From positions 248,001 to 312,000 of the forward strand of contig NZ_JACJPI010000042.1 of NCBI RefSeq assembly GCF_014695975.1: DNA of 64,000 bases, written 5' to 3'. The stretch is from Leptolyngbya sp. FACHB-321. GTDB lineage: Bacteria; Cyanobacteriota; Cyanobacteriia; Leptolyngbyales; Leptolyngbyaceae. Under the pieces are notes generated by a model. That model was not told where the DNA came from and did no database searches. It saw nothing but the letters and a program-made list of their open reading frames with translations. Shown piece after piece: positions 17,650 through 46,636 of this stretch; position 1 is the stretch's first letter, and every line of letters begins with the position of its first letter. The position numbers and the translations under genes are program-made.

Positions 17650-17720
17650 AAGGAGCATAAAGGCAGAAGGCTAAAGGCAGAAGGCTGAACTCAAAACTCA
17701 AAGCTCAAAACTCAAAACTT
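17650..17720 (+). repeat. Heptad plus CTCAAAA repeat block
   Basis: Tandem units ggcagaa/ggctaaa (17660-17687) followed by repeated ctcaaaa units (17689-17720). The same two-part block recurs after yvcK (38589-38667). It occupies the gap between the DUF2721 gene and the second permease. Confidence 0.7.
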
Positions 17721-22747: not shown

Positions 22748-24328
22748 ATGACGATCGGCGTTTGGGTTTTGGGTGATCAGCTTTGGGCGGAGCAGGCAGC
22801 GTTGCAAAGCTGTTTTGATCAGCAAAAATCAACTCCGGTCATCTTTATTGAGTCGCTAGATCATGTGCAAGAGCGACCGTACCATTTGCAAAAGCTAGTG
22901 CTGGTGTGGTCAGCAATGCGTCACTTTGCTGAGGCTCTGCGGCAGGCGGGTTGGTTAGTCGCGTATGAGCAAGCGGATGATTTTCTAACGCCGCTCAAGG
23001 CATGGATTGAGGCTCATCAGATTACAGAACTGCGGGTGATGAGGCCGAACGATCGCCCCTTTGCCCGCCTCATTCAATCACTACCCCTGCCTTGCACTGT
23101 CACTCTGGTTTCTAATAATCACTTTATTTGGAGCGAAGCCGACTTTAGGGAGTGGGCGGGCGATCGCAAACGACTGGTGATGGAAGACTTCTACCGCGAA
23201 GGTCGTCGTCGCTGCAACATCCTCATGGCAGGGAAGCAGCCTTTCGGTGGTCGCTGGAACTTTGACCAGGACAATCGCAAGCCGCCCAAAGGCAAACTGA
23301 CGCTGCCCGAAGCCCTCTGGTTTGCACCGGATGCAATCACGCAGGATGTGATTGCTTGGGTTAAGCAGGATGACCGCTTCAAAGCCAGTCAGCAGTATTG
23401 GCAAAGTGAGCCGTTTCAATGGGCAGTCACTCGTGATCAGGCGCTCCAGGTGCTGCACTTTTTCCTGACGATGCGCCTTTCTGATTTTGGTCCCTATCAG
23501 GATGCAATGGTGACGGGCGAAATAACCATGTGGCACGCTATGTTGTCGCCTTATCTCAACCTCGGACTCCTGCATCCGCTGGAAGTTGTGGAGGCAGCCG
23601 AGCAGGCATATCTTGACCATCAAGACACCTGGAGCCTTAGCAGCGTTGAAGGCTTTATCCGCCAGGTTTTAGGCTGGCGCGAATATATGCACGGCGTTTA
23701 CAACTTCATGAGTGATGACTACCCAGACCGCAATTGGTTCAACCACACTCAGCCGCTCCCCAACCTTTACTGGACAGGCGAAACATCAATGAATTGTCTG
23801 CATCAGATCCTCACACAAGTGAAGGAAACTGGCTATGCACACCACATTCAACGCCTGATGGTGCTGAATAACTTTGCGCTGATTGCCGGTATTTCTCCCC
23901 AAGCCATTGAAATCTGGTTCCATGCTGCGTTTGTCGATGCCTATGATTGGGTCATGCAAACCAATGTCATCGGTATGGGGCAATTTGCCGATGGTGGCGT
24001 GCTAGCATCCAAACCCTACGCTGCTTCTGCCAACTACATCAACAAGATGAGTGACTACTGCGGCAAGTGTACCTACAACCCCAAAGCCCGCACAGGTGAA
24101 AAGGCTTGTCCCTTCAATTTCTTTTACTGGGATTTTCTCGATCGCCACCGCGCCAAACTTACCTCTCAGGGACGCATGAGCTTTATTCTCCAAAACTTGG
24201 GCAAAATAGCACCGGAGGAGTTGCAGGCAATCAGGGAGGAAGCGATCGCCTGGCACAGCAATAATGTCCAAGACGATCGCCAAGCTCAAGCAGGCATGAA
24301 CATAGACAAGAAGCAAACGCTTAAATAA
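22748..24328 (+). CDS. Iron-sulfur bacterial photolyase (FeS-BCP / PhrB type)
   Basis: A 526-residue cryptochrome/photolyase-related protein. It begins with the DUF-type N-terminal domain (GVWVLGDQLW) and has the FAD-binding helical domain from about residue 230 (EGFIRQVLGWREYMHG). Cysteines at 350, 438, 441 and 454 (TSMNCLHQ; YCGKC; KACPF) have the spacing of the 4Fe-4S ligands of Agrobacterium PhrB, a (6-4) photolyase. It probably repairs UV-induced (6-4) photoproducts using light. Start ATG 22748; a GGGGG run just upstream may act as ribosome-binding site. Confidence 0.9.
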   Translation: MTIGVWVLGDQLWAEQAALQSCFDQQKSTPVIFIESLDHVQERPYHLQKLVLVWSAMRHFAEALRQAGWLVAYEQADDFLTPLKAWIEAHQITELRVMRPNDRPFARLIQSLPLPCTVTLVSNNHFIWSEADFREWAGDRKRLVMEDFYREGRRRCNILMAGKQPFGGRWNFDQDNRKPPKGKLTLPEALWFAPDAITQDVIAWVKQDDRFKASQQYWQSEPFQWAVTRDQALQVLHFFLTMRLSDFGPYQDAMVTGEITMWHAMLSPYLNLGLLHPLEVVEAAEQAYLDHQDTWSLSSVEGFIRQVLGWREYMHGVYNFMSDDYPDRNWFNHTQPLPNLYWTGETSMNCLHQILTQVKETGYAHHIQRLMVLNNFALIAGISPQAIEIWFHAAFVDAYDWVMQTNVIGMGQFADGGVLASKPYAASANYINKMSDYCGKCTYNPKARTGEKACPFNFFYWDFLDRHRAKLTSQGRMSFILQNLGKIAPEELQAIREEAIAWHSNNVQDDRQAQAGMNIDKKQTLK

Positions 24329-24562
24329 CCCAAAGGGTACTACTAGCTTTTTGATTTTGAAACAGAATAAAGGTGATCTAAGCAGATCATCTAGCGTTCC
24401 GACTTGAAATTTGAAAGCATACTGAGACTAGAAACCTCTCCTAGTGGCACTCCTATATCGGAATCTCCTCAAAAAATAACCGAATTCTTGTAGAAAACCC
24501 TGGTAACTAGGTACAGGGTGTTTGAGCTTAGAAATTTTCCAGCCAAAAAATAGAGGATTTTG

Positions 24563-25924
24563 ATGACTTCTCACCAAGAAGAGACCGTGCAACAAAACCA
24601 GACCACTGCTTCTGATTATCAAAATAACAGCCGTCCAGAGCTTAAGGTCACCGTTCTTCCGGCAGTACATACTCAAAAATTTGTTTTAGAAAATATTAAG
24701 CAACTAAGAGAACGGATTGCTAAAGACATTAGAGATTTTGATCAGAAAAACTTACCTGAGGACTTACAAACCGAAATCCCCAAGCTTGCTGTCCTGCTGC
24801 AAAGAATTGAACGCTTAGCGTTAAACACTAATCAAGCCAAAAAGTTAGGCGCGCTGAACAGCTTGGTCTGCTCACTTGAAGTTGCACTCTCGTCTTTATT
24901 TCAGAAGAAACTCACTAAAGAATTCACTCGGCAAATTCGGCTTGATGTTGAACAAGAGGTGATTGGATACGAACAGCCACCCGTCTTAAGATTGTTCGTT
25001 AGCCATTTCTCATACATCTGGCACACAAAGTCAGTCCGCCTTAGTGTCATTTATGGACTTTTTTGGTCGTTTGTCATTATGTTTGGGGGGCTTTTTTCAC
25101 TAGCTCTCATTCAATATACAATCTATAGCTCCAAGGCAAACGCTGAAATTGCAAAGAAGAGTACAGATGGAAAAACAGATGGAAATGATGAGAAGAATAA
25201 AATTTTAGAGAATCTCTACGCCCAGCTAGCGGAAGCCAACTCGGACGTTGAAAAATTTGATGATCAAATTGATAAGCAGAATAAGAAGGTAGAGGAGCTC
25301 AGTACCGAACTATATCAAGTCGTGACAAGTGCACCCTTTGCTAAAGACGTAAAGAATGAAAAGATCGCTGAGCTTAAGAAAAACGACAAGATCGCTGAGC
25401 TTAAGAAAAACATTGCACAAACGAATAAAAGTTTAACTCAACTTGAAGAAAGGCAAAAAATCGCTTTGATAAGGGGACAAAACTCATTTTTACAAATCAC
25501 TAGCGTCGATAGTTTTTCAAAAACACTAAATCAAATACTGTGGGTCGCAGCAGCAGGAACACTAGGCAGTATTGTGAGTATTCTGATTCGTGTGATTGGG
25601 AAATCTTATGATCAAGAGGCATATTACGATCGACTCACGCCCATCTTCATTGGCTTCTTCAAACCTGTCATTGGCGCATCGTTTGGTGTTCTGTTTCTAG
25701 CCTTTATTAAGGCTGGGGTGGTAAGCACACCGCTCATCCCTGATATGAGTAAACCTGCTAGTTCAGAGTTGACTGTAAGAACGTCTGACAATCCAGAAAC
25801 AAAGGCTGGCTTCTTTCTTTTCTCGGTTGGGTTTATCGTTGGGTTTAGCGAACGGTTAGCAAAAGACACGATTAGTAAATTAGAGGGCAGTAGTAGTGCC
25901 AGCAAGGAAGAGGGCAAAGGGTAA
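24563..25924 (+). CDS. Coiled-coil membrane protein of unknown function
   Basis: A 453-residue orphan from the ATG at 24563 (a TTG lies one codon upstream). Layout: a soluble helical N-terminus (about 1-155), a first membrane helix (about 160-187), a charged Lys/Glu-rich coiled coil (about 195-305), then three more hydrophobic segments (about 324-346, 360-388, 415-430). A tandem repeat inside the coiled coil encodes KIAELKKN twice. The segments AAAGTLGSIVSILIRV and FIVGFSERLAKDT may be the family signature. The gene is visibly more AT-rich, with more Lys/Asn codons, than its neighbours. I do not recognise the family; membrane sensing or scaffolding is only a guess. Confidence 0.75.
   Translation: MTSHQEETVQQNQTTASDYQNNSRPELKVTVLPAVHTQKFVLENIKQLRERIAKDIRDFDQKNLPEDLQTEIPKLAVLLQRIERLALNTNQAKKLGALNSLVCSLEVALSSLFQKKLTKEFTRQIRLDVEQEVIGYEQPPVLRLFVSHFSYIWHTKSVRLSVIYGLFWSFVIMFGGLFSLALIQYTIYSSKANAEIAKKSTDGKTDGNDEKNKILENLYAQLAEANSDVEKFDDQIDKQNKKVEELSTELYQVVTSAPFAKDVKNEKIAELKKNDKIAELKKNIAQTNKSLTQLEERQKIALIRGQNSFLQITSVDSFSKTLNQILWVAAAGTLGSIVSILIRVIGKSYDQEAYYDRLTPIFIGFFKPVIGASFGVLFLAFIKAGVVSTPLIPDMSKPASSELTVRTSDNPETKAGFFLFSVGFIVGFSERLAKDTISKLEGSSSASKEEGKG
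25361..25411 (+). repeat. 24-base tandem direct repeat in coding sequence
   Basis: Two identical 24-base copies at 25361-25384 and 25388-25411 with a 3-base spacer (27-base period), beginning aagatcgctgag and ending aagaaaaac. It encodes two KIAELKKN units and points to a recent in-frame duplication in the coiled coil. Confidence 0.85.
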
Positions 25925-26030
25925 CAGCACTCGTTTGATCGCCGTTCGCCACTCAGGATGACAGTTTTACCTCTTAAGCTATCCTCTAAGCTTCTGACAG
26001 TCATAATCCAGGCTCTCCACCTTAAACGCT

Positions 26031-29158: not shown

Positions 29159-31385
29159 CAGCTCTTCATCACTCCTTTAACACACGTACAGCTTATCCTC
29201 GTTGCGAGCCACGCTGTACTACTCAACGTACCCAGATTAAGGTTGAGGTTCCCCATCCTTTGTGCAGAGACAACCTTTGAGCATAATGCGTCGATCGCAG
29301 CCCATTTCGTTATCGCTAGTGCTTCTAGAGTCACGATCTGCACCAAGAATACCAGCCAGTCTACTCCAACCGTTCGATTTTCAAACAAAAATAAAGTGGG
29401 CTAAGACGAACACGTTGAGCTTGACGGTTAAATTTCTTAAGCGTTATTGAATAGCAGGCTGAAGCAAGCCGGGACAGGAGCATCCCAAAACTTGAGCTAG
29501 GGCAGCAGCACTTGAACCGCATCTTTCAATATTTCCCTGAGCTTGGAGTCACACAAAGTTTTGTGATGTATGCGCACGAGTGCTACGACCAGGTTTTTCA
29601 CTTCCATATCTGCCACGTTAGAGGCAAGCAGGGTGCGGCGTCGGGTCAATGGAGGTATCTTCAAGTCCACGTCTTGCTAGCCGCAGACTATTGAGATGGC
29701 GATCAGTCAACGTAAGAGTAATTCTAAGTCAACGTGGCTTTTCAGTACTTATACCGCTACGCCTTGGTCATCTATTGGCAAAGCATCACTACCAAGCACC
29801 AATGCATGATATAGAGAACTGTTGAAAAACCAGTACAGAGTACTTCTAAAATCGCAATGCCGCTTCTCGCTATTTCCACTAACGTATGCTTTCTGCCCTT
29901 GCTTAGATGAACAGTATGTAAAAATACGGTAAAATTTTTCCTTTTTGAGATATTAAGTACAACTTTGCTTTATTGTGTATAGAGAAGAAATTTACAAAAG
30001 AAATAAGTCAGGTTGTCTCGTTTCTTTAATGAAAGCCGGTCTGTATACACTGTTATGAGGAGAGGGTGAAAATACTACCTTCATACGTACTCGCGACGTA
30101 AATTTTCAATTGTAGTTCTATTGCGTCTGCAAAGCCTGTTATTTAGCTAGGAAAGTGAAATTCTAGCTGGATGGATTTGGTGTAAATATTGAAAGCTGTT
30201 TCGATAGCAAATCTTGAGATTAATAGAGTATGTCTATAACCTTTGGACCGGAGCTTATAAGCCTGTTCTATAGAGATTAATTGCGTTCTGATAGCAGGCA
30301 GCTTTCAAAGCTTTGATGAAACAGCCAAACCCTATGAAAAATATTTACTGTTGAATCCAGTGCACCGAAATTCATTCCTATCAGAAAGCAAGGGCAACAG
30401 AAAAGCATCTGCAATTAAATTGCCAATTTCCAAAACTCATACGGATTTTTGGGTCGCCTATGGAGTCGTTCTACTCAGCGAACGATAGCGAACCGTCGGC
30501 AAAGAAACAGGCAAAACTAGCTAGATTTATCGCTTCAACAATACATTGAGGCAACAAGTATCTCGCTCAGTCCGCAAAACTTTTTTCTCAAAATCAGCAG
30601 AGATCATATTGGTGCCATTGGGTCTTTCATCTATCGCTACAAAGCATCATTACTTTTGTATCACTATCAGGTTTAACTATACTTATACCTAATCGAAACT
30701 CTACAATACTAGACTGCCTATTTAGGTTTATTTTTATTAGTCTAAGTAATATCACTGGATACCTAGGTTACTTCAGCTGCGTATAACCACTATGTTTTGC
30801 AGGTTGCTCAAAAACTGAAAAATAGTCTGTAAAGAATACCCAATTGCCTCGCCAAAATAGTTCTACAAGATTAGTTAATGCCTAAGCTTTTCGTACCTCA
30901 TTACCAAGCTAAGATACTGTGACCTTTGGCATCGCCTCAGGTACGTACTTTCCCTAGCTACATTAGGTCCTTCATAAAGTTATATTTCTAAATATGCCAC
31001 TTCCACCGCAGAAGAGAGATGAAGCTAAAAAAGCTCTGATGAAGCTGATAAAGCTCTAGCGAAATTAATATGAAGTTGGTGGCTAGTAAGTATAGTAACT
31101 TTCTCCTAGAGGGTAATCTATAGAAGATAAGCAAATAAGCAGAAGAGGCATTTGTATAAATGTCGTCAGTCTTAAAGCCAATGCTGCTTTGATATTTCCG
31201 TAAAGCAGCTTTTTACTCTTGAGGCATCAATAGTATGAGTGCTCGATTGCACTATCCACAGTCTCCTAACTGCCTTAGCATCGAAAACTATTACTTTTAG
31301 CGTAAACGAGTGGCAACTGCTTCATCCTAATAACGGTTTGTGTGAGCATTGCAAACCAATGTCCATTCATCTTGTAGAGGTTACA
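29159..31385. other. 2.2-kb AT-rich gene-free region
   Basis: No reading frame here has convincing codon usage or recognisable protein similarity; the longest frames (60-130 codons) are disordered in composition. Sequence is clearly more AT-rich than the flanks from about 29.8 kb on. Two segments resemble each other: 29768-29800 and 30628-30655 share 'catctat' and 'caaagcatca(c/t)tac'. A fragment at 29748-29764 resembles the start of the dispersed repeat at 1961-1988. This may be a decayed gene region or a long leader of the polysaccharide genes. No transposase was identified. Confidence 0.5.
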
Positions 31386-32645
31386 GTGAAAACAATTGAT
31401 ATGGCAGCATACGTTGATGATAGCGAGACTATAAGCAATCCTTTGCCTATGGATAACCTTGCTCTCAAAGATGGCTTAAACAACATTCCATTTAGTAAGC
31501 TCTATACAACTGAGCATGAGTTGGAGTACATTGCTCAAGCGATTGCTAGTAGACAAATTGCTGGTGATGGAGCTTTTACCAAAAAGTGTCAGCACTGGTT
31601 ACAGCAAGTACTGGGCAGTCAAAAGGTTCTATTGACGCATTCATGCACCGCTGCCCTAGAGATGGCAGTCATCCTAGCTGATATTCAGCCTGGTGATGAA
31701 GTGATTATGCCATCCTATACGTTTGTCTCAACGGCTAATGCTGTTGTTTTACGAGGTGGTATTCCAGTTTTCGTTGATATCCGTCCAGACACTCTTAACT
31801 TAGATGAAACACTGATAGAAGCCGCAATCACGTCTAAAACTAAAGCGATTATGCCTGTGCACTATGCTGGCATCAGTTGTGAGATGAGTGCCATTCAGGC
31901 ATTAGCGACAAAATATGGTCTCGCTATTATTGAAGATGCAGCTCAGGGCTTTGGCTCTATGTATAAAAGTCAGCCTTTAGGTAGTTTAGGGAAGATGGCA
32001 GCTTTTAGCTTTCACGCTACCAAAAACATCGTCTCTGGTGAAGGTGGAGCGCTTGCCATCAATGATCCTGCAATTATGGAACGAGCCGAAATTATTTGGG
32101 AAAAAGGCACAAACCGGAGCCAGTTTTTTAGAGGAGCGGTAGATAAATATACTTGGGTTGATGTGGGGTCATCCTATCTGCCAAGCGATTTACTGGCAGC
32201 TTTCCTATGGGCGCAGTTAGGGCAAGCAGATGAGATTAAACAGCAACGTCTAGGGCTTTGGCAGCGCTACGACAGAGCATTCGCTCCACTAGAGCTACAG
32301 GGTAAAGTGCGTCGTCCAACAGTGCCTTTAGAATGCCAACATAATGCTCATATCTACTACCTACTAGTCGATAACCTCGAAACACGAACACAGGTATTGG
32401 CTGCGCTCAAACAGTATGGTGTTCAAGCAACCTTTCACTATGTACCTCTCCATAGTGCTCCTGCAGGACGCAAGTATGGTCGAGCGCAAGGTGAACTTAG
32501 CGTTACGGACGATATCTGTGATCGCATTGTGAGGCTACCGCTTAGTGCGGCACTGACCACGAGTGAAGTCGATCACGTAATTGCTTTAGTCTTGCAAGCA
32601 TTAGCTGTCCGAGATACGGCTCTGTCTTTTGCGCCCCTAAGTTGA
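31386..32645 (+). CDS. wecE: dTDP-4-amino-4,6-dideoxygalactose transaminase (WecE/RffA type)
   Basis: A DegT/DnrJ/EryC1 family PLP enzyme of about 420 residues. It closely follows E. coli WecE: PFSKLYTTEHELEYIAQAI, AGDGAFTKKCQHWL, LTHSCTAALEMA, PGDEVIMPSYTFVSTANA, HYAGISCEM, the PLP-lysine region FSFHATKNIVSGEGG, and KGTNRSQFFRG-x-VDKYTW. It makes an amino-dideoxy sugar nucleotide for surface glycans. I start at GTG 31386, preceded by TAGAGG (31375-31380); an upstream frame opening at 31239 and an ATG at 31401 are alternatives. A glycosyltransferase follows 16 bases later. Confidence 0.88.
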   Translation: MKTIDMAAYVDDSETISNPLPMDNLALKDGLNNIPFSKLYTTEHELEYIAQAIASRQIAGDGAFTKKCQHWLQQVLGSQKVLLTHSCTAALEMAVILADIQPGDEVIMPSYTFVSTANAVVLRGGIPVFVDIRPDTLNLDETLIEAAITSKTKAIMPVHYAGISCEMSAIQALATKYGLAIIEDAAQGFGSMYKSQPLGSLGKMAAFSFHATKNIVSGEGGALAINDPAIMERAEIIWEKGTNRSQFFRGAVDKYTWVDVGSSYLPSDLLAAFLWAQLGQADEIKQQRLGLWQRYDRAFAPLELQGKVRRPTVPLECQHNAHIYYLLVDNLETRTQVLAALKQYGVQATFHYVPLHSAPAGRKYGRAQGELSVTDDICDRIVRLPLSAALTTSEVDHVIALVLQALAVRDTALSFAPLS

Positions 32646-35841: not shown

Positions 35842-35930
35842 GATGAGTCCTCACTAAGTAGGGAAACATTGGAGAAAGAGTGACTTTAGACCGAGCCTAC
35901 AGCCTGCAAAAGCTAGCTCAACCAATCATT

Positions 35931-35980
35931 TTCCCTTTCTCCTTTTCCTTTTGCCTTCTACCTTCTGCCTTTTGCCTTCT
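35931..35980 (-). repeat. TTTGCCTTCT heptad repeat
   Basis: Pyrimidine-rich units (ttttgccttctaccttctgc and similar), the reverse complement of the aaggcagaagg block seen at 17650 and 38589. It lies between the ATPase stop and the MCE gene. Confidence 0.65.
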
Positions 35981-37221: not shown

Positions 37222-38589
37222 ATGACCTTTGGTTTACTCAAACAGGCGCTCCATGTGCTGCGGCACGAATCACGTCACCGTACGCCCAACCGTGTGAACC
37301 AATGGTTTAAATGGTTGGCTCCTGGTTTATTTGTGAAGCGCTGGTTGCTGTTAAGCGCAAGCGGCGTACTGCTAACAACCCTGGGGTTTGCGGTCTGGCT
37401 CAAGTTAACGCCAGTTTTTTATACAACTCAGATTTTAGGGCAAATTCTTGACGAAATCACTGATGTGATTCCCAGCTACATTAGTGGTCCGCTGGCGATG
37501 CTGTTGGGCTTTTTGCTGGTCTGGTGGGGGCAGACACGCACACTTGGGTCGATTACCGAAGTGCTGATGCCTGACGGTGACGAGGAGTTGATTGATGTCC
37601 TACTAACGCACCGACGCTTGCATCGTGGTCCGCGCATTGTCGTGGTTGGCGGTGGCACTGGGTTATCGAATTTACTGCGGGGCTTGAAGCGCTACAGCGC
37701 TAACATCACGGCGATTGTGACTGTGGCGGATGATGGTGGTTCGTCTGGGCGGCTACGGCGCGAAATTGGCGTGCTGCCTCCAGGCGACATTCGTAACTGT
37801 CTGGCAGCGCTAGCAGACGAAGAAAAGCTGCTGACTGAGCTTTTTCAGTACCGCTTTAAGGCGGGTGATGGGCTGATGGGACATAGCTTCGGCAATCTAT
37901 TCCTGACAGCAATGAGTGAGGTAACAGGTGATCTAGAACAGGCGATCGCCGCGAGTTCTCGTGTGTTGGCAGTGCGTGGACAAGTACTGCCTGCTACCTT
38001 AAGCGATGTGCGGCTGTGGGCAGAGTTAGCAGATGGTCGCTACATTGAGGGCGAATCGAGCATTACCGAAGCAAATGGCGCGATCGTCAAAATCGGCTGT
38101 ATACCTGCGAATCCACCCGCGTTGCCCAAAGCGCTGAGAGCCATTGAGGAAGCCGATTACATTATTATTGGTCCGGGTAGTTTGTACACCAGCATCATTC
38201 CCAACCTGTTAGTGCCAGAGATTACTGCCGCGATCGCTCAGCGCGATGTGCCTCGCATCTATGTCTGCAATATCATGACTCAGGAAGGCGAAACCCAGGG
38301 CTACAGCGTCGGTGACCATATTCGAGCGATCGATCAGGCGTGTGGTCGATCCTTGTTTGGAGCCGTACTGGTGCAAAAGAAGATTCCTTCCGCAAGGGCA
38401 CACATTCGTTATGCTCAAGAAAACTCCAATCCTGTGCCTCTCGATCGTGATGTCATTGTCCGCATGGGGCGTCGGATCGTACTGGCAAATGTGATGGACG
38501 AAGACGAACAAACGGGACTCATCCGCCATGATCCCCAACAACTAGCCCGGGTGCTGCTGCGCTGGTACAGTCGGGTGGAGGGGCTTTAG
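37222..38589 (+). CDS. yvcK: YvcK / CofD-like UDP-sugar-binding protein
   Basis: A 455-residue protein with two N-terminal membrane helices (about 41-61 and 88-103) and a soluble CofD-like domain from residue 137: [13 protein letters not shown] (141-153), [35 protein letters not shown] and [17 protein letters not shown]. YvcK proteins bind UDP-GlcNAc and coordinate carbon flow with cell-wall synthesis; they are required on gluconeogenic carbon sources in Bacillus. The membrane anchor is absent from the roughly 320-residue Bacillus form. tsaE follows on the same strand after 90 bases of repeat. Confidence 0.92.
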
Positions 38590-38667
38590 AAGGCAGGAGA
38601 CGGAGGGCAGAAGGCAGAAGGCAGGGGACGTAAGGGAAGCAATTCAAAACTCAAAACTCAAAAACCC
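38589..38667 (+). repeat. AAGGCAG heptads plus CTCAAAA block
   Basis: Units aaggcag/gagggca (38590-38625) followed by tandem ctcaaaa (38643-38664). The order and sequence mirror the block at 17650-17720. It fills the gap between yvcK and tsaE. Confidence 0.65.
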
Positions 38668-45620: not shown

Positions 45621-45802
45621 GGTGCAACCCGCTTGCCTGCCGTGAGAAATTCCTTCTAGTGTAATACTCACTGGGCAAGCTGAATGCTAGCGTAGCGTAC
45701 CAAACTGACGAGAAAGAAAAGCTAGGTCTGCTGTTTTGATACCAATTTAATTTTTTGTTTATAAAAAATATGGTGGGCGGTAAAACCCATTCCTGCTCCC
45801 TA

Positions 45803-46636
45803 CTACCTACTCCCTACTCTCCACGCTGCTAACGGCGGCACATCCTGCAATGCCTGGCTCAAACTGATATGAAGCGGTCCGTTGGTTGCCAGGATACGTC
45901 CAGAACTAATGTTAAGCGGGCTGCGATCGTATGCTGTCACGGTGCCCCCGGCTTCTTCGACCAGCACGATCCCGGCTGCCATATCCCAGGGCGATAGACC
46001 ACGTTCCCAGTAGCCATCGAGGCGACCGCAGGCGACGTATGCCAAATCCAGGGCAGCGGAACCGCTGCGCCGTACGCCCTGGGTGAGATGGGTTAAGTGG
46101 CAAAATTCAGCGTAGTTGTTGTCAGTAGTTTGGCGACGATCGTAGGCAAAGCCCGTGACCAACAAACTTTTTTCCAGTGCAGCCGTGTCTGACACGCGGA
46201 TGGGACGACGGTTGCGTGTGGCTCCCAGCCCTTTGGCAGCGCGAAACAACTCCTCCCGAAACGGATCAAAGATTGCCCCTACTTGCGGTATGCCGTCAAT
46301 GAGCAGTCCGACCGAAACGGCTGAAGCAGGGTACTGGTGAGCATAGTTAGTGGTGCCATCGAGCGGGTCGATCGCCCACAGATAAGCACTCTCTTGATTG
46401 CCCAACGAGCCTGATTCTTCCGCCAGGATTTTGTGATCAGGTACATGACGATGCAAAATCTGCAAAATCGCGGCTTCGGCTGCTTTATCTGCTTCTGTCA
46501 CTAGATCGCCGGGGCGACCCTTCTCTTCGATCGCCTCCAGGTTCCCCCAGTAATCTTGCAAAATGGCACCCGCTGCCAGCGCGGCTTCTGTAGCAACATC
46601 AAGAAAAATTTGGAGCTGATTAGAATCAGAAATCAT
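45803..46636 (-). CDS. Inositol monophosphatase family protein
   Basis: A 277-residue phosphatase with the metal-binding motifs EE (73-74), WAIDPLDGTTN (87-97) and LSPWDMAAG near residue 218. Members dephosphorylate inositol phosphates or related sugar phosphates, or act as SuhB. The length and motifs are standard. It lies 128 bases downstream of the nuclease gene on the same strand. Substrate cannot be settled from sequence. Confidence 0.92.
   Translation of the reverse strand: MISDSNQLQIFLDVATEAALAAGAILQDYWGNLEAIEEKGRPGDLVTEADKAAEAAILQILHRHVPDHKILAEESGSLGNQESAYLWAIDPLDGTTNYAHQYPASAVSVGLLIDGIPQVGAIFDPFREELFRAAKGLGATRNRRPIRVSDTAALEKSLLVTGFAYDRRQTTDNNYAEFCHLTHLTQGVRRSGSAALDLAYVACGRLDGYWERGLSPWDMAAGIVLVEEAGGTVTAYDRSPLNISSGRILATNGPLHISLSQALQDVPPLAAWRVGSR

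Follow-up and report, generated by a model that had tools for sequence, protein, structure and literature searches.

The window analyzed in this study, a 64-kb stretch of DNA from a cyanobacterial genome (G000; 6.7 Mb in 91 contigs), contains an AT-rich gene for a membrane protein, which was originally predicted to be an orphan, to have been gained horizontally, and to serve in sensing or scaffolding at a membrane. The question raised by this locus is whether the gene is indeed a solitary newcomer or belongs to a family with a role of its own. We find that the gene belongs to a bacterial family of membrane proteins with four helices, which has no name so far and is called here the GFSER family.

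Results

Composition and repeats of the gene

The start codon of the gene (Table 1) is directly preceded by TTG, and a candidate ribosome-binding site, AGAGGA, was read by eye at about 24552–24557. Among the 48 ORFs of at least 120 aa in the window, the gene is lowest in GC content (0.410), being 10.6 points under the ORF mean of 0.516 (sd 0.028); given also a GC3 of 0.402 and a Lys plus Asn content of 13.9%, the richness in A/T and in Lys/Asn noted in the original prediction is confirmed. A recent tandem duplication had also been claimed, and the duplication is indeed there: the 24-base word at 25361 and 25388, repeated in frame with a period of 27 and giving KIAELKKN twice, is the sole exact direct 24-base repeat in the 64 kb when one strand is compared with itself, and a 12-base duplication is found in the same gene. 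Elsewhere in the window, a second AT-rich stretch lies at 30001–32000 (GC 0.379–0.413) with a 20-base tandem repeat at 31018–31057, and heptamer short tandem repeats, which are common in filamentous cyanobacteria, occur at 17688–17719, 35929–35978, 38588–38663, and 45792–45819.

Table 1. Features of the gene and of its conserved upstream neighbor in the window
Feature	Position	Strand	Details
GFSER-family four-TM membrane protein gene	24563..25924	+	453 aa; ATG 24563, stop 25922-25924; homologs
N-terminal helical domain, residues 37-157, predicted cytosolic	24671..25033	+	dN/dS 0.13-0.18 against two congeners; AlphaFold2, K+R density
TM1, residues 158-187	25034..25123	+	
Extracytoplasmic coiled coil (predicted), residues 188-315	25124..25507	+	AlphaFold2, congener comparison
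12-base tandem duplication, 1.9 copies	25163..25185	+	
27-base tandem duplication	25361..25411	+	24-base identical copies at 25361-25384 and 25388-25411
Conserved three-TM C-terminal domain, residues 316-445	25508..25897	+	G..GS..S...R / KP.IG..F / F..GFSER...D
GFSER motif, residues 427-431	25841..25855	+	alignments A1 and A2
Photolyase-related gene (DPRP, PF04244), conserved upstream neighbor	22748..24328	+	4/7 genus genomes

Relatives in cyanobacteria and other phyla

No model of Pfam or NCBIfam was matched by the window protein over its cut-off; the best, TIGR04527 (the MG_279/MG_280 two-TM family), gave 24.6 bits vs a cut-off of 125 (E 1.8e-5, residues 169–380), and this match is confined to the window member among 20 members. 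When 20 full-length members and 49 C-domains were scanned, each of the Pfam or NCBIfam families listed matched one to three members with an E-value no better than 1.8e-5. Also, nothing convincing was hit in PDB sequences and PHROGs, a PADLOC search gave no family either, and the string GFSER led to no relevant paper among the literature matches listed. The original statement that no family could be recognized therefore stands as to Pfam, NCBIfam, and PDB sequences at their cut-offs, but many relatives exist. With the own genome counted in each case, the family is present in 16 of 97 related genomes, in 8 of 42 genomes of the taxonomic family, and in 10 of 386 genomes of a phylum sample; it is hence patchy in cyanobacteria and occurs in at least four other phyla as well, so that the gene can no longer be called an orphan.

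A pattern search based on an alignment confirmed 82 out of 171 stretches, of which 80 loci in named genomes were kept; most are cyanobacterial, and the others are from Gemmatimonadota, Myxococcota (Archangium), Pseudomonadota, Actinobacteria, and a MAG of Acidobacteria. Because GFSER was included in the pattern, the constancy of the motif in these loci is partly built in. Furthermore, 13 of 195 Myxococcota genomes were found to have the family, in 17 distinct loci. Gene starts were taken as the first start codon throughout; in some of the myxobacterial ORFs, the long N-terminus is probably not part of the translated protein. For the census of neighbors, eight duplicate loci were dropped, and then 9 of 93 without a recognizable family ORF, to give 84 loci, which keep near-duplicates of Nostoc and Microcystis.

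The family is defined by a three-TM C-terminal domain with G..GS..S...R, KP.IG, and F..GFSER...D, and all of the named positions are found in the window protein. G427–R431 and D435 are invariant in all 20 members that were found without using the motif (alignment A1); the invariance of GFSER in the 49-row alignment A2 is largely by construction, as the motif was used to find the loci.

Predicted architecture and topology

The AlphaFold2 model of the window protein (46 sequences; mean pLDDT 81.4, pTM 0.64) starts with a low-confidence tail (residues 1–36) and a helical domain (38–137), which are followed by the first of four TM helices (158–202, 316–345, 358–384, and 411–445) and, between the first and the second, by two coiled-coil helices (209–255 and 263–311) forming a hairpin (209–311). 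In all of the 46 aligned members, furthermore, the density of Lys and Arg is higher on the N-terminal flank, the TM2–TM3 loop, and the C-terminal flank than in the other loops. The four membrane segments around a coiled coil, as envisaged in the original prediction, are thus supported by both the model and the charge density. Because of this charge pattern, both ends of the protein are predicted to be cytosolic with the coiled coil outside, and the conserved R343, K367, E430, R431, and D435 would therefore face the cytosol. A short relative of 239 aa from a Methylococcaceae MAG (L147) is modeled with a pLDDT of 92.4 on the same plan and has hardly any coiled coil.

The predicted structure was also submitted to Foldseek, as had been suggested with the original prediction, and no match was obtained at E ≤0.001 either for the whole model (PDB and viral structures) or for the 239-aa relative (viral structures). 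Fold searches gave coiled-coil and helical-bundle matches with Z up to 13.1 for the whole model and 11.1 for the 239-aa relative (PDB, by a VIA second look), a level that is common for helical models according to the tool and does not prove that the fold is new.

A conserved scaffold with a hypervariable coiled coil

When compared with two congeners (L087 and L089, which are the same genes as rows L035 and L036 of the alignment), the protein is well conserved except in one part. Identities are 79 and 69% in the N-domain, 80–83% in TM1, and 83–92% in TM2, TM3, their loop, and TM4; moderate variation is seen in the N-terminal tail (69 and 47%) and the TM3–TM4 loop (50 and 58%). Residues 188–315, in contrast, retain 28 and 26% identity with 35 deleted and 8–10 inserted residues, and the segment aligned with residues 180–322 ranges from 19 to 212 aa in 46 members. 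Indeed, dN in the coiled coil is 0.52–0.68 vs 0.06–0.18 in the N- and C-domains, and dN/dS is 0.25–0.39 vs 0.05–0.18, where the coiled-coil values rest on a shaky alignment for the pairs with the window gene and on a firmer one for L087–L089 (0.39, two gap columns). The conserved parts are therefore under purifying selection, and the coiled coil, within which the 27-base duplication sits, is hypervariable. No dN/dS above 1 was seen in the coiled coil in this congener comparison, and a relaxed spacer hence accounts for the variation no less well than a recognition surface would.

Descent of the gene in the genus

In four of the seven genus genomes (G000, G004, G005, and G006), one and the same photolyase-related gene lies immediately upstream of the gene, with the copy in G004 cut by a contig end; in G001, G002, and G003, neither a family gene nor a detectable remnant is found there, while a distant member is encoded at another place in G001. 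The family tree puts the window protein in one group with L087 and L089 (100/100), and these two are sisters, as they are in the genus tree. A tree of three neighboring genes, with an outgroup of our choice, joins G001 and G002 (99.2/99) as a nested sister pair and places G000 with weak support (45.3/63). The simplest reading of these data is one old gain at the site and one loss, plus the absence in G003, the chosen outgroup. Between the window gene and its congeners, dS is 0.58–1.32 in the N- and C-domains as compared to 1.34–1.68 in the photolyase neighbor, although these values are near saturation and rough. The comparison of GC content bears out the low value, yet this is shared by the family: in 62 of 69 loci, the member is under its flanking ORFs (by 6.7 points on average), and in 38 it is the lowest of all ORFs, the test having left out 15 of the 84 loci as too short or with fewer than five other ORFs. 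Composition as a family trait is therefore no sign of recent transfer.

It might still be supposed that the gene is a recently acquired, AT-rich foreign gene without a settled function, given a GC content that far below the window ORFs, the absence from the site without any remnant in three genus members, and a patchy occurrence in both the family and the phylum. The shared upstream neighbor, a dS like or below that of the neighbor, and the family-wide low GC argue nonetheless against a recent transfer into the source genome, to which the purifying selection can be added; we regard recent acquisition as very improbable, and the horizontal gain originally proposed is not supported for this genome. 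An older transfer, beyond the genus, is possible. In the family at large, inheritance with the same neighbors, considered in the original prediction for the whole order, is seen within the genus only; beyond it, the occurrence is patchy and the contexts differ. The conservation of the neighborhood is likewise partial, since the photolyase-like gene is kept upstream in the four genomes but the 3′ neighbor is not ancestral. The interval 25925–26030 of the window is a rearrangement junction, and the block of VOC (26031) and PBP (26571) genes is elsewhere in the other genus genomes examined; genes after the photolyase-like gene differ between lineages. A mobile-element origin was also considered and rejected, as no plasmid, phage, or viral-contig relative was found.

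Wall hydrolases fused to or beside relatives

In 11 of the 17 Myxococcota loci, the relative is fused to, overlapping with, or directly after a peptidoglycan hydrolase. Eight of the 17 ORFs, including that of Archangium (L134, the same locus as L264), combine a muramidase, a PG-binding domain, a proline-rich linker, and the four-TM domain in one chain; in L266 these parts are divided between two ORFs with a 7-base overlap, by a natural split or a frameshift, and in L272 and L274 a GH25 lysozyme gene ends 92–95 bp before the likely start of the family gene. The part homologous to these muramidase fusions is the C-terminal domain (residues 316–445). Indeed, when the window C-domain alone was compared with the 17 ORFs, 11 of them matched at E 2.9e-16 to 1.8e-11 with 29–35% identity, and these are exactly the 11 hydrolase-linked loci. 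The other six (E ≥0.003) are divergent, none having the exact GFSER or an adjacent hydrolase; in one of them, L278, there is a PG-binding gene at a distance of about 1.1 kb, beyond another gene.

Other leaderless hydrolases adjoin relatives in Crocosphaera, Okeania, and one Gemmatimonadota. In Crocosphaera and Okeania, the hydrolase is the next gene upstream, and the two cases form one clade. Furthermore, in the Crocosphaera MAGs (L125, L132, and L140), a lysozyme-type gene, the family gene, and a patatin-like phospholipase gene are co-directional with gaps of 32–120 and 20 bp, and the lysozyme fold differs between the Crocosphaera species, either GH19 or GH24, both with M15. Pfam domains were confirmed in L134 (N-terminal Muramidase, 6.7e-61, and PG_binding_1) and in the adjacent genes of L140 (Phage_lysozyme, 8.3e-51, and Peptidase_M15_3; L132 alike), L125 (Glyco_hydro_19 and M15_3), L114 (Glyco_hydro_19 alone; L115 alike), and L143 (Amidase_2 and PG_binding_1, divergent strand). 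The remaining cases, L132 and L115 included, rest on phmmer similarity to these, and GH25 rests on PDB sequences (L272, match to 1jfx at 2.6e-30), with L274 called by its similarity to L272. The hydrolase partners thus come from three phyla and cover five catalytic families, all wall glycosidases or amidases.

In the 84 loci, hydrolase-domain genes make up 6 of 156 adjacent genes vs 1 of 790 others, a count that is biased since the queries were cut from the cases themselves, may miss other hydrolase types, is uncorrected for the relatedness of loci, and is thin outside Myxococcota and cyanobacteria. No constant partner is seen among the neighbors across the family loci, and most cyanobacterial members have no hydrolase neighbor. 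Also, no hydrolase domain of the kinds searched was found in the 64-kb window (phmmer, E ≤0.01, ORFs of at least 60 aa), nor is a hydrolase adjacent to the close relatives of the window gene.

An N-terminal hydrophobic stretch is absent from the partners inspected (nine separate ones and four of the nine fused or split ones), with a maximum of 0.35–1.33 vs 2.32 in a secreted protein; endolysins that need a holin have no such stretch. The N-terminus that is fused to the muramidase in myxobacteria is predicted to be cytosolic from the charge pattern. It is the leaderless hydrolases together with this putatively cytosolic N-terminus that suggest a holin-like or type 10-like partner. Among the literature matches listed for a muramidase–holin fusion in Myxococcus, no title concerned the GFSER family.

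Other neighbors

In L272 (3801–9386, minus strand) and L274 (6755–12108, plus strand), the GH25 lysozyme gene and the GFSER membrane protein gene are followed by a row of reb-like genes. Several small genes downstream of both carry the Reb signatures QITD, NAV, and QQQ, taken from PMC13430693, nine ORFs being matched in L272. The search of further loci and of the window turned up no reb-like or GH25-like ORF.

In four loci, a convergent gene for a secreted protein of 110 aa with conserved Cys residues (C39, C51, C53, and C91) lies directly 3′ of the family gene (L087:9423–9752, L089:6535–6921, L037:10863–11201, and L103:9295–9624, all on the minus strand). This protein has no match in the window genome, and no Pfam family was hit by the two copies scanned (L087 and L103). 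As a constant partner it was rejected, because the wider family occurs in 47 of 386 genomes, mostly without a GFSER gene; where the two do co-occur (G017, G199, G309, and G311), they either do not share a contig or are separated by about 82 kb. In Stenomitos frigidus, as read from the sequence, a distant member (L124, 4910–9872) stands between hsdR- and hsdM-like type I restriction genes, with gaps of 52 and 3 bp. The PADLOC tally of neighbors, which names no member, contains one entry each for REase_I and MTase_I.

Discussion

We tentatively propose, at somewhat short of even odds, that the family would supply the membrane half of a wall-breaching module, holin/endolysin-like or type 10-like, with the window copy as a solo version. 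The TM protein would hold a leaderless peptidoglycan hydrolase, or open a way for it across the membrane; the enzyme would come in the same polypeptide or from the next gene upstream in myxobacteria, and from the next gene upstream in Crocosphaera and Okeania, with the patatin-like gene directly downstream in Crocosphaera. In the window copy, which is solo, the enlarged and fast-changing extracytoplasmic coiled coil may choose the partner or the trigger. Both the passage of the enzyme through the membrane by way of the TM domain and the retention of this role in the window copy are inferred; the genomic traces would be no different if the protein simply tethered or regulated the enzyme. More doubtful is the wider picture of a chromosomal, non-phage, holin-like family whose members would take leaderless hydrolases of the wall, unrelated in fold, through the inner membrane, and which would include a one-protein muramidase-transporter in myxobacteria, a GH25 pair in R-body clusters, a lysozyme/TM/patatin operon in Crocosphaera, and the solo copy with a hypervariable ectodomain in Stenomitos-type cyanobacteria. 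Membership among the holins is not claimed; the family may only work like a holin. The observation that drew attention to the gene is right, nonetheless, even though the orphan and recent-gain readings do not hold for the source genome, and the main weakness of the hydrolase partnership as an explanation is that the window copy stands alone.

This very solitude is accommodated by the main rival, in which the sensing or scaffolding of the original prediction survives as a possibility, while the comparative evidence points more to a partnership with wall-cutting enzymes. As an envelope sensor or tether, the protein would sense or hold a target in the wall, the outer membrane, or the thylakoid lumen through its coiled coil, and the TM bundle would signal to the cytosolic face (R343, K367, E430, R431, D435, and the N-terminal domain), with the hydrolases as regulated clients and not cargo. 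A hypervariable ectodomain on a conserved scaffold, the conserved charges predicted on the cytosolic side, and the gene for the convergent secreted Cys protein at the 3′ end in the four loci (L037, L087, L089, and L103) would all suit such a protein. The small relatives L129, L147, and L143 have hardly any ectodomain (19–24 aa in the segment), however, and ectodomain sensing hence cannot be the core function of the family; the dN/dS of the ectodomain also fits a merely relaxed spacer, and no fused domain of known signaling role was seen. We consider this rival somewhat less probable than the wall-breaching module. A third reading, a pore-forming effector of a defense or cell-suicide system resembling the TM effectors SLATT and YLATT, is improbable. 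It draws on single relatives that adjoin a caspase-like gene (L110), patatin genes, and type I restriction and argonaute-like genes, but the PADLOC comparison of 99 adjacent proteins vs 110 proteins three to five genes away showed no clear excess near the family, in 57 of the 84 loci (the 27 left out being mostly near-duplicates and short contigs) and with 63 vs 154 model families matched, the best 25 of each being listed; a defense island was rejected on this ground. The YLATT model (PF20303) was hit in 3 of 49 C-domains at E ≤0.1, the best at 0.0013 and that of the window not among them; it gave no match to the window protein at E ≤10, did not exceed its cut-off anywhere in a set of 10 genomes or in 386 cyanobacterial ones, and was therefore dropped. 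The lack of hits in phages, plasmids, and viral contigs speaks against an effector as well.

If the partnership with wall hydrolases is right, holin-like export or lysis would not only be a loan from phages but be performed by an unannotated bacterial family with its own membrane domain, sometimes with the enzyme in one chain with that domain and sometimes beside R-bodies. Many unnamed membrane proteins would then be given a testable role, and it could be asked how myxobacteria and filamentous cyanobacteria release large proteins. Even if the role is wrong, the sharp division of the protein into a membrane scaffold that is conserved and a coiled coil that is hypervariable shows the low GC and the gain of repeats to be features of the family, not marks of recent arrival.

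Comparison with known systems

Parallels seen by eye are with superfamily III holins (the LydA type, PF16083, and the Serratia phage Serbin type), which likewise have three TMs, the first of them rich in glycine with an Arg at its end and the last with a G..G..E-like pattern. Weak Foldseek matches include several holins, all at E >0.8: a LydA holin is at rank 38 (E 0.83) with the full window model, and several holins are among the matches with E >1 for the minimal model of the 239-aa relative. A test for homology nonetheless found none: the hhalign profile comparison with LydA- and Serbin-type sequences gave a probability of 1.2–2.7%, and its score was reached by 1, 2, and 3 of 40 locally shuffled holin alignments, although not by reversed ones; PF16083 was not among the 21 families matched by the 49 C-domains at E ≤0.1 either. 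Besides this lack of significant profile similarity, the GFSER protein exceeds these holins in size and has in addition a helical domain in the cytosol, TM1, and a coiled coil, the shortest member modeled being 239 aa and thus twice a LydA holin (109 aa), and the family is chromosomal with no relative found in phage records. Serbin has the endolysin-then-TM gene order that is seen in hydrolase-adjoining relatives; adjacency to an endolysin, a feature of holins, has its counterpart in the 11 Myxococcota loci (fused, overlapping, or adjacent) and in the 6 adjacent genes of the 84 loci but not, with the domain queries used, in the 64 kb around the window copy.

For R-bodies, which have to get out of the cell before they can act, the likeness is that the membrane protein of the two Myxococcota loci stands between a GH25 lysozyme gene and the reb-like row, and the difference is that only these 2 of the loci examined do so. 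In a term search, the main text of PMC13430693, an R-body paper, contained no Myxococc-, lysozyme, muramidase, or holin, and none of the terms sought occurs in PMC8322103 on P. aeruginosa R-bodies.

Type 10 secretion systems consist of a holin and a peptidoglycan hydrolase, as in chiWXYZ, according to PMC13284979. The relatives described here similarly pair a leaderless hydrolase with a TM protein, and the product of the patatin-like gene downstream in Crocosphaera could be a cargo; the differences are that the GFSER TM protein is not a recognized holin and that the window copy has no hydrolase gene beside it. Finally, a natural holin–endolysin fusion has been described in C. sporogenes (PMC9527704), in which a TM part and a wall hydrolase are united in a single chain, as in the myxobacterial proteins; the holin there is of the TpeE family with the cargo at the C-terminal end in the model of that paper, whereas the enzyme precedes the four-TM domain here.
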